DNA from: Hymenobacter sedentarius
GTDB lineage: Bacteria; Bacteroidota; Bacteroidia; Cytophagales; Hymenobacteraceae
Assembly: GCF_001507645.1 (NCBI RefSeq)
Contig: NZ_CP013909.1
Coordinates: 2,542,001-2,606,000 of the forward strand
Direction: 5' to 3'
Length of the DNA: 64,000 nucleotides
Every line of letters begins with the position of its first letter. Positions within the stretch are counted from its first letter, which is position 1. Shown one piece after another: positions 47,988-50,000 of the stretch. The position numbers and the translations under genes are program-made. The notes below the pieces were generated by a model that had not been told where the DNA came from, searched no databases, and worked only from the letters and a program-made list of their open reading frames with translations.

Positions 47988-48947
47988 TTAAGCAACCGCT
48001 TTGGCCTCCAGCCGGCGCACCAGCCGAATGGGGTACACAATAAAATACCAACCAATGAAGGCCGCTGAGCTGCCGATAATGGCCAGGCTGGCGGCCACAG
48101 GCATCTCGGTGTGGCGCGTCACGAAGCCTTCCAGAAAGCCGGCCACCACAAAAATGGGCACCAGCCCAATGGCCAGTTTCAGGCCATCGCGCGCCGAGTG
48201 GCGAAAGGCTTCGGCCCGGCCGTAGGTGCCCGGAAACAACAGGCCCCGCGCCATCACAAAGCCCGCAGCGCCCGCCACTATCACGGCCGAGATTTCCAGC
48301 GTGCCGTGAATCCAGATGGTGAGCACCGAGGCGCGCAGCACGTGGTAGTGGTAGAAAAAGTACTGGAAAGAGCCCAGCATCAGCCCGGTGCGAAACAGCT
48401 GCACCAGCGTGCCCACGCCCAGGGTCACGCCCTGTACGAAGATGTTGAGCGCCACGTAGATGTTATTGGCCGTGATGCCCAGAAACATCAGCGTTTCGCC
48501 CTGCTGCTTGTACACGGCCATGGGGTCGCCCTTGCGGATGTTTTCGATGGTCTGGTTTACGTAGGTGTCGCCCATTATCACCCGCACAAAAGTGTCGTCG
48601 TAAGCCGCCGACAGGGCCCCCAGAAACGTGAAGACCGCGAAGAGTAGGGCCGTGACCGCCAGCGTGCGGTGGTGCCGCGCCACCACCAGCGGCAGCTCCA
48701 CGGCCCAAAACCGGGCAAAGCGCCCGCTGCTCTCGCGCTTATTGGCATAGAGGCGCTGGTGCAGCTTGCTGGTAAGGGCGTTGAGGTAGGCGGTGGTAGG
48801 CGAGGTGGGGTAAAACGTTTGGGCGTAGGCCAGGTCGTCGGTGAGGGCCACGAAGCGGGCGGCCAGCTCGTCGGGGCCGGCCGGGGGCTGCCGCTCGTAC
48901 TGCTGCCAGCGCTCCTGGTTCTGACGCAAAAAAACGGCTTCTCGCAT
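47988..48947 (-). CDS. SpoIIM-family membrane protein
   Basis: This 319-residue protein has an N-terminal soluble helical part (MREAVFLRQNQERWQQYER) and about six membrane helices. The family-typical stretch YVALNIFVQGVTLGVGTLVQLF is followed by IWIHGTLEISAVIVAGAAGFVMA. SpoIIM (stage II sporulation protein M) is named from spore-formers, but homologs occur widely in non-sporulating bacteria next to RDD and MoxR genes. It is the first gene of the minus-strand cluster and is divergent from phhA. Confidence 0.88.
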   Translation of the reverse strand: MREAVFLRQNQERWQQYERQPPAGPDELAARFVALTDDLAYAQTFYPTSPTTAYLNALTSKLHQRLYANKRESSGRFARFWAVELPLVVARHHRTLAVTALLFAVFTFLGALSAAYDDTFVRVIMGDTYVNQTIENIRKGDPMAVYKQQGETLMFLGITANNIYVALNIFVQGVTLGVGTLVQLFRTGLMLGSFQYFFYHYHVLRASVLTIWIHGTLEISAVIVAGAAGFVMARGLLFPGTYGRAEAFRHSARDGLKLAIGLVPIFVVAGFLEGFVTRHTEMPVAASLAIIGSSAAFIGWYFIVYPIRLVRRLEAKAVA

Positions 48948-49010
48948 TGCTTGAATTTGAAGGGCTTAAAGATAGCAAGTGGCTGCCAGCGGGCCGCATT
49001 CAGCGGCGCC

Positions 49011-49043
49011 TTGCTTATTAAGCTGCGCTTGGGCTTATCTTTG
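49011..49043 (+). promoter_or_regulatory. Promoter of the phhA leader transcript
   Basis: TTG (49011-49013), a 22-base spacer and TATCTTTG (49036-49043) match the Bacteroidota consensus apart from a slightly long spacer. The -7 box is so close that transcription would begin near 49047-49050, at or next to the ATG of the leader reading frame. Confidence 0.6.
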
Positions 49044-49047
49044 GGCC

Positions 49048-49134
49048 ATGCCCGCACTCTTGGCCCGTCGCTATTACCGCTATTGCTATTGCGCACCCTC
49101 CTGGTGCGAAGCGGCCCTGGCGTGGCGCGGCTAG
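49048..49134 (+). CDS. Tyr-rich leader peptide of phhA
   Basis: This is a 28-codon frame from ATG to TAG. Its centre reads ARRYYRYCYCAPSWC, giving four Tyr, three Cys and two Trp in 28 residues. The Tyr codons are at 49072-49077, 49081-49083 and 49087-49089. They lie just before the first of three RNA segments that can form alternative hairpins. The peptide has no signal or domain and most likely serves only to position a ribosome. Because phenylalanine hydroxylase makes tyrosine, a tyrosine-sensing leader fits the downstream gene. The stop codon is 26 bases before the terminator stem. Confidence 0.7.
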   Translation: MPALLARRYYRYCYCAPSWCEAALAWRG

Positions 49135-49200
49135 TCCCGGCACTCCTCTTGCAAATCTGCAAATGCCTGCTTCCCACCTCGGAGGCAGGTATTTTTATTT
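49092..49200 (+). promoter_or_regulatory. Transcription attenuator controlling phhA
   Basis: Segment 1 (49092-49097, CGCACC) pairs with segment 2 (49103-49108, GGTGCG) around a CTCCT loop. Segment 2 extended to 49103-49116 can instead pair with segment 3 (49165-49178) at 12 of 14 positions, counting one G-U. Segment 3 overlaps the 5' arm of the terminator (49161-49174). The three foldings are mutually exclusive in the classical order 1:2, 2:3, 3:4. A ribosome held at the Tyr codons (49072-49089) would cover segment 1 and free segment 2 to block the terminator. This is read directly from base pairing; the regulatory outcome is inferred. Confidence 0.68.
49161..49200 (+). terminator. Terminator hairpin of the phhA attenuator
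   Basis: Arms 49161-49174 and 49181-49194 form a 14-bp stem with two G-U pairs and a CACCTC loop, followed by TTATTT. It lies before phhA, not after a gene, as expected for an attenuator. Confidence 0.82.
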
Positions 49201-49226
49201 CAGGTCAATTTCACTTTCGCTTTTTT

Positions 49227-50000
49227 ATGACCCACGCCCCCGCCACCGCTGCTTTCGTTGCCCTCGAGCAAGACTACGCCCTCTACACGCCCGCCGACCA
49301 ATGGGTGTGGCAAACATTGTTTGAGCGCCAGATGCAGGTGCTGCCCACCGTGGCGTCGCGCCGGTTTCTCGAGGGCCTACCCCGCGTAGACTTCCAAGCC
49401 ACCAAAATCCCCGACTTTGCCGAGGTGAACCCGCTGCTGGACGCGGCCACGGGCTGGAGCCTGGTGGCCGTGCCCGGCATCGTGGACGACCGTACCTTTT
49501 TTGAGCTGCTGGCGGCCCGCCGCTTCCCGGCCACCACTTGGCTGCGCACGCCAGCACAACTCGACTACCTCGAAGAGCCCGACATGTTCCACGACGTGTT
49601 TGCGCACGTGCCCCTGCTTACCGACCGGTTTTTTGCCGACTTCCTGCAGGCCGTGGGCACCCTGGCCCTTCGCCACCTGCACGATGCCCTGGCCGTGGAG
49701 CTGCTCTCGCGCCTGTACTGGTTCACCGTCGAGTTTGGGCTGATTGCCGAAGGCAGCAGCTTGCGCATTTACGGGGCGGGTATTCTATCCTCGGGCGGCG
49801 AAACGCGGTTTTGCCTGAGTGACGAGCCCGCCCGCCGGCCCTTCGATGTGGTCGACATCCTGGCCACGCCCTATGTAAAAGACCGCATGCAGGACGTGTA
49901 CTTCGTCATCGATTCGTACGAGCAGCTCGCCGCCTCCGTGCCTGCCCTCGAGGCCGAGCTGCTGCGGCTGCTGGCCCTGCAGCCGGCATCCATCGGCTAA
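49227..50000 (+). CDS. phhA: Phenylalanine 4-monooxygenase
   Basis: This enzyme hydroxylates L-phenylalanine to L-tyrosine using tetrahydropterin, O2 and non-heme iron. The protein has 257 residues, the usual size of the bacterial single-domain form without the mammalian regulatory and tetramerisation parts. The iron ligands are His122 and His127 in EPDMFHDVFAHVPLL and Glu169 in LYWFTVEFGLIAEG. IYGAGILSSGGE follows. The ATG at 49227 is chosen because the longer open frame runs through the terminator hairpin. No pterin-recycling dehydratase gene is adjacent. A Tyr-rich leader and attenuator precede it. Confidence 0.95.
   Translation: MTHAPATAAFVALEQDYALYTPADQWVWQTLFERQMQVLPTVASRRFLEGLPRVDFQATKIPDFAEVNPLLDAATGWSLVAVPGIVDDRTFFELLAARRFPATTWLRTPAQLDYLEEPDMFHDVFAHVPLLTDRFFADFLQAVGTLALRHLHDALAVELLSRLYWFTVEFGLIAEGSSLRIYGAGILSSGGETRFCLSDEPARRPFDVVDILATPYVKDRMQDVYFVIDSYEQLAASVPALEAELLRLLALQPASIG

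Follow-up and report, generated by a model that had tools for sequence, protein, structure and literature searches.

The phhA locus and its leader

The window that we analyzed, a stretch of 64,000 nucleotides from the Hymenobacter sedentarius genome, contains a gene for phenylalanine 4-monooxygenase (phhA), identified by TIGR01267 (279.6 bits; cut-off, 264.75) and by a match to the PF00351 domain. An initial annotation had read the region ahead of this gene as a tyrosine-sensing attenuator, i.e., a Tyr-rich frame of 28 codons followed by mutually exclusive hairpins and a terminator, and the frame and all of its coordinates proved correct to the base when checked against the sequence. The features of the locus, with the evidence for each, are:

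49036..49043, + strand: TATCTTTG, candidate Bacteroidota -7 promoter box (TAnnTTTG); sequence, box survey, and spacing from PMC6847099
49048..49134, + strand: leader ORF MPALLARRYYRYCYCAPSWCEAALAWRG, 28 codons plus TAG; translation, and orthologous leaders at 27/30 genus loci
49072..49089, + strand: control region with four Tyr codons; sequence, and Tyr columns kept with synonymous exchange
49092..49097, + strand: segment 1 (CGCACC), forming the pre-emptor hairpin with 49103-49108 (GGTGCG); sequence and covariation
49103..49116, + strand: segment 2, the 3' side of hairpin 1:2 and the 5' side of antiterminator 2:3; sequence, pairing and folding
49161..49178, + strand: segment 3, comprising the terminator 5' arm (49161-49174) and the antiterminator partner (49165-49178); sequence, terminator scan and pairing
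49181..49199, + strand: segment 4 (49181-49194), with the T-tract that completes the intrinsic terminator; terminator scan and covariation
49227..50000, + strand: phhA, phenylalanine 4-monooxygenase, 257 aa, the putative regulated gene; TIGR01267 and PF00351

Tyrosine accounts for four of the 28 leader codons (TAT at 49072, TAC at 49075, TAT at 49081 and TAT at 49087), the last of which directly precedes segment 1. The annotated pairings are likewise present at their positions: besides hairpin 1:2, there is a 2:3 duplex in which 12 of 14 positions are paired (one of them as G-U), and a terminator, recovered by the terminator scan, with 14 pairs, a loop of 6 and the tract TTATTTC. When the 170-nt leader was folded, its z-score relative to shuffled versions was -2.58, and only one of 200 shuffles was as low. 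The upstream neighbour is a SpoIIM domain gene (47988-48947) on the strand opposite to phhA; because it points the other way, the terminator does not belong to the end of a plus-strand neighbour. No Rfam leader, T-box or riboswitch family scored above its gathering score in the region 48900-49400, where the sole match was to RF02221 on the minus strand (19.8 bits, gathering 53).

Conservation within and beyond the genus

A protein search of 101 genomes of the genus found window-type phhA in 33 (identity 79-100% in seven of them and 55-61% in the other 26), and 30 of these were returned with their loci (L001-L030). The same leader and terminator occur at 27 of the 30, with the leader ATG 179-221 nt ahead of the start of the protein match. 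A covariance model of the element, built from 22 of these rows, matched 30 of the 101 genomes with E below 1e-20, every match being directly upstream of phhA; because the coordinates of the matches end just before phhA, we assign the element to 30 of the 33 genomes with a window-type gene. The H. sedentarius genome holds a single match, the locus at 49036-49226. Among weaker matches, we rejected five (G009, G050, G065, G057 and G023; 32-37 bits) that have a terminator and no Tyr leader; the other weak matches, among those listed, had E values of 8e-4 and worse.

Most genus loci with a window-type phhA thus keep the element, but the leader is absent from L005, L006 and L007, three of the seven phhA homologues nearest to the window gene. 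The phhA of these three is 79-86% identical to that of the window, and the region upstream of L007 includes a stretch that by eye resembles a transposase end. Tyr-containing frames recovered by a loose scan at L006 and L007 encode different peptides, and both loci are negative in our strict scan, which calls a Tyr-rich frame plus a terminator.

In a codon alignment of the 27 leaders, one Tyr column reads TAT in 27/27 and the next reads TAC in 19 and TAT in 8; two further columns hold Tyr in 24 and 25 leaders, and a fifth in 18. Third codon positions vary most (1545 single-base differences vs. 704 and 478 at the other positions, counted over non-independent row pairs), and a leader motif, RYYxYxYYAP, is well conserved across the genus.

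Elsewhere in the family, matches were found in 42, 8 and 12 genomes of three genera that we denote g3, g5 and g6 (database genus labels, not species names). The best matches fetched, from 42 g3, 8 g5 and 3 g6 genomes, provide 53 loci; this set excludes the second matches in g5, as well as nine g6 genomes whose matches were weak (E 1e-31 to 1e-35). All 53 have a Tyr-rich frame ahead of phhA, called by eye at 20/20 and by the presence of at least four Tyr in eight codons at 33/33. The strict scan is positive at 30/53 (16/20 and 14/33). Those misses that we examined have a hairpin with a T-run that breaks the stem rule, and many g3 loci with a visible Tyr-rich frame and T-run hairpin were missed, as were L002 and L004 of the genus, both of which bear the leader. 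Most leaders in g3 are long, at about 50 codons.

Among named loci (the best 80 of a longer match list), 26 are positive in the strict scan, including Cesiribacter, Marivirga, Roseivirga, Echinicola, Algoriphagus and Chitinophagales MAGs; several of the 26 are Hymenobacter whose genomes were also counted above. Probable duplicate records are L153/L099, L174/L085, L175/L109 and L182/L104. Many loci from Algoriphagus, Belliella and Cecembia are negative in the strict scan or have few Tyr codons. Across the order and beyond, 3/20 loci fetched are positive, one per family in three families (1/6 within the order and 2/14 beyond it). As controls, the strict scan was positive in 3/254 tiles of the window, one of which is the phhA locus itself, in 0/13 regions ahead of D/E-type hydroxylases of the genus and in 2/23 C-type regions. 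The two C-type positives, L128 and L129, are not the conserved leader, and they were left out of the 70-row duplex, codon-usage, promoter and 59-leader tests described below; the 33 g3 loci judged by the rule of four Tyr in eight codons are absent from the folding, promoter and tree tests.

At Algoriphagus loci such as L047, L051, L066 and L068, a terminator accompanies a short frame resembling MNPTPRTYVHHSYHLLQ, in which Tyr occurs only two or three times, situated between the end of a DAHP synthase-like gene (by eye, at L051 and L066) and phhA. Searching the H. sedentarius genome for a Trp-leader pattern gave one match, which was out of frame for Trp and was rejected.

Stem pairing, predicted switch and putative transcript start

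Hairpin 1:2 and terminator 3:4 are supported by covariation. Stem 1:2 occurs in the genus as GCUCC/GGAGC, GCACC/GGUGC and GCUUC/GAAGC, and for both stems together 94.4% of cells are paired, with a covariation score of 0.176 vs. 0.084 in shuffled alignments (0/500 shuffles as high). Changes on both sides of a pair affect five pairs and 16 cells, values reached by 2/500 and 0/500 shuffles, respectively. The annotation had proposed that relatives would show conserved Tyr codons and compensatory changes in all three stems: the codons and these two stems agree with it, but stem 2:3 agrees in its pairing (94.6% of cells) and not in its covariation, which is not clearly above shuffles. In a fixed register, its score is matched by 34/500 shuffles, and the one pair changed on both sides is equalled by 377/500. 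By eye, the window clade forms 2:3 in a slightly shifted register, and direct scores of the 2:3 duplex have z below -2 at 22/70 loci (mean -1.44). Because its covariation does not stand out from shuffles, the case for stem 2:3 comes from its pairing, its position and the folding tests.

To model the switch in the window, the transcript was cut before segment 4 and the RNA was masked as it would be by a ribosome. The predicted probability of 2:3 is 0.00 without masking, 0.64 when masked to 49089, and 0.85 when masked to 49095 or 49101. According to the initial annotation, the Tyr codons sit where a stalled ribosome would cover segment 1; this describes the two 3'-most codons, which are best placed, but applies only in part to the second, since with that codon in the A site the folding model leaves hairpin 1:2 half formed (0.60). 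On the full-length window RNA at equilibrium, the terminator forms in all three states tried, and P(3:4) is 0.90 even when masked, so the switch must be kinetic.

The same behavior is predicted for most leaders. Among 59 distinct leaders masked up to the last Tyr codon, mean antiterminator pairing (terminator 5' arm with spacer) rises from 0.22 to 0.66, a gain of 0.44 vs. 0.17 for dinucleotide-shuffled spacers, and gains over 0.3 occur in 45/59 real leaders vs. 221/885 shuffled-spacer versions. The Wilcoxon p of 6e-8 for real against shuffled spacers overstates the evidence because the leaders are related. Masking raises the pairing in 50 of the 59, lowers it in five and leaves it unchanged in four. 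Four of the 59 (L053, L078, L079 and L168) have no predicted switch; five (L008, L014, L015, L025 and L083) have a small reversed switch because 2:3 forms without a ribosome.

The promoter box, which did not figure in the initial annotation, ends 4 nt ahead of the leader ATG. In Flavobacterium johnsoniae the G of the TAnnTTTG box lies at -5 (PMC6847099), a spacing that would place the start of transcription in the window on the A of the leader ATG (49048). Boxes resembling TAnnTTTG (at least 5/6 letters) are found 4-13 nt (median 5) ahead of the start in 48/59 distinct leaders, and 4-6 nt ahead of the start codon in 42/59, compared with 328/3600 random positions in a control that includes the L128 and L129 regions. 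The three g3 leaders in this survey (L166-L168) have no box at the start. The position of the box suggests that transcription starts at, or a few bases from, the leader AUG; in flavobacteria, leaderless transcripts are the exception, at 5.5% (PMC9723704).

Proposed mechanism, alternative readings and metabolic setting

We consider it very likely that the element upstream of phhA attenuates transcription in a ribosome-mediated manner, with charged tRNA-Tyr as the signal read. The transcript would begin at the leader AUG or a few bases from it. With ample tyrosine, a translating ribosome would pass the Tyr codons and hairpin 1:2 would re-form behind it, leaving segment 3 free to pair with segment 4, such that RNA polymerase would terminate before phhA. 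When charged tRNA-Tyr is scarce, we infer that the ribosome would wait on the Tyr codons, covering segment 1 and leaving segment 2 to pair with segment 3 ahead of the synthesis of segment 4; the polymerase would then continue into phhA, whose product would turn phenylalanine into tyrosine. The gene is thus probably read mainly when tyrosine is short.

There are three rival readings. Queuosine occurs in tRNA-Tyr, -His, -Asn and -Asp, and the leader might read this property of NAY-decoding tRNAs, and not tyrosine charging alone, which would link phhA to pterin/queuosine supply. The leaders do favor TAT over TAC (73:50 in 23 genus leaders vs. 23:177 in phhA itself at L001-L030; in g5, 23:12 in eight leaders vs. 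93:334 in a crude background), and in several Cytophagales lineages His codons are interspersed with Tyr (e.g., YHYHYYH and TYIHHSHYY). However, genus leaders contain 123 Tyr and 3 His codons, one transition is enough to turn a Tyr codon into a His codon, and the preference for TAT, which is slight in the other 28 leaders (95:42 vs. 1065:746), may merely keep the control region unstructured; we regard a queuosine signal as improbable. Still less probable is an arrest peptide, in which the nascent leader chain itself would sense free tyrosine, phenylalanine or another ligand, as in TnaC. Such a model could accommodate the conserved RYYxYxYYAP motif and the conserved non-Tyr motif of the C/D/E-type sister leaders, but ligand-induced arrest on Tyr codons would increase phhA expression under ample tyrosine, peptides outside the genus have little in common except Tyr runs, and synonymous exchange is frequent (1446 synonymous and 1281 non-synonymous single-base codon differences, from non-independent pairs).

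That an ordinary terminator lies behind a frame that is Tyr-rich by chance is scarcely credible. The strict scan is also positive in two other window tiles and in the two C-type regions, but chance is contradicted by conservation: the element is kept in many species with its Tyr columns, promoter box and covariation, and the upstream gene is oriented the other way.

Read as a tRNA-Tyr-charging device, the element is a variant of the trp/his-type attenuator, with a new amino acid sensed, a new target and a probable AUG start. To our knowledge, RNA control by tyrosine is known only through T-boxes. These also read tRNA charging to control transcription, but bind the tRNA directly and without translation, and the phhA locus has no Rfam T-box match. 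Tyrosine genes have been placed under T-boxes (PMC1262725). With the trp, his and pheA attenuators of Proteobacteria, the phhA leader shares repeated codons for the product in a leader ORF, hairpins predicted to be mutually exclusive and an intrinsic terminator (PMC1183508); it differs in its Tyr codons, in a target that is a hydroxylase and not a shikimate-route operon, in its probable start at the AUG, in an ORF that runs through segment 2, and in its Bacteroidota host. The leaderless trpL of Sinorhizobium meliloti is similar in that the 5' end of the attenuator RNA is the leader ATG (PMC7298713), but it uses Trp and acts on trpE(G), and its 5' end is reported there, whereas that of phhA is deduced from the promoter box.

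Leader-peptide systems were described as known only from Proteobacteria and Actinobacteria by 2010, with Firmicutes then added (PMC2965389), and in Acholeplasma, the uORF ahead of aroF contains one Phe codon or more (PMC8632094). Leader-peptide attenuation in Bacteroidota has already been reported in general: there are ‘strong clues’ for it at amino-acid biosynthesis operons of Flavobacterium psychrophilum, of the same phylum, in a paper that mentions neither tyrosine nor phenylalanine in its main text (PMC9723704). The initial annotation knew of no description of such control for this gene in Bacteroidota, and our literature search agrees, in that no Tyr-codon or phhA attenuator was evident from the title or the start of the abstract among the matches listed. 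A translated Tyr-codon leader appears to provide RNA control by tyrosine in the family of the window and in several other Cytophagales families, by means of a compact attenuator; RNA regulation in this phylum has been little studied.

Phenylalanine hydroxylase is often regarded as catabolic, and the leader suggests that in these bacteria phhA serves tyrosine supply. A prephenate dehydrogenase domain (PF02153) was found in 15 of 19 genomes searched, H. sedentarius included, so phhA would be a second route to tyrosine and not the sole one; genome G007 has the attenuator and no PF02153 match.

The genus also possesses hydroxylases of the C, D and E types (36 rows), whose different conserved leader and terminator contain no Tyr run. 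The one of D type in H. sedentarius is:

G000:C1:3833819-3834505: D-type hydroxylase, L031

All 36 fall on one side of a single branch (SH-aLRT 100) in a tree of 176 proteins, made by a quick method and rooted at the midpoint. Their RNAs favor 2:3 even when free of a ribosome (0.70 free vs. 0.88 best masked, at 35 loci), the terminators being taken by a motif rule at 35/36, without L119. One might generalize that Bacteroidota wire phenylalanine hydroxylases to start-at-AUG attenuators with an exchangeable sensor, many reading tRNA-Tyr, some Tyr/His leaders maybe reading queuosine, and one Hymenobacter group (36/36 sampled C/D/E rows) combining another conserved leader (e.g., KCFxLTNIRP) with another signal and the opposite default folding; we think this rather unlikely as a whole. 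Paralogues whose leader differs provide a natural experiment for following shifts in attenuator specificity. At L031 and L117-L151, the C/D/E leaders directly follow a box resembling a promoter (e.g., MMSHQLVKQFCLTNIRPARDGVGLTCRYGS and MRHQHVNITNLMTCPKQGEIGLLLAKRKSKA) and have their own terminator.
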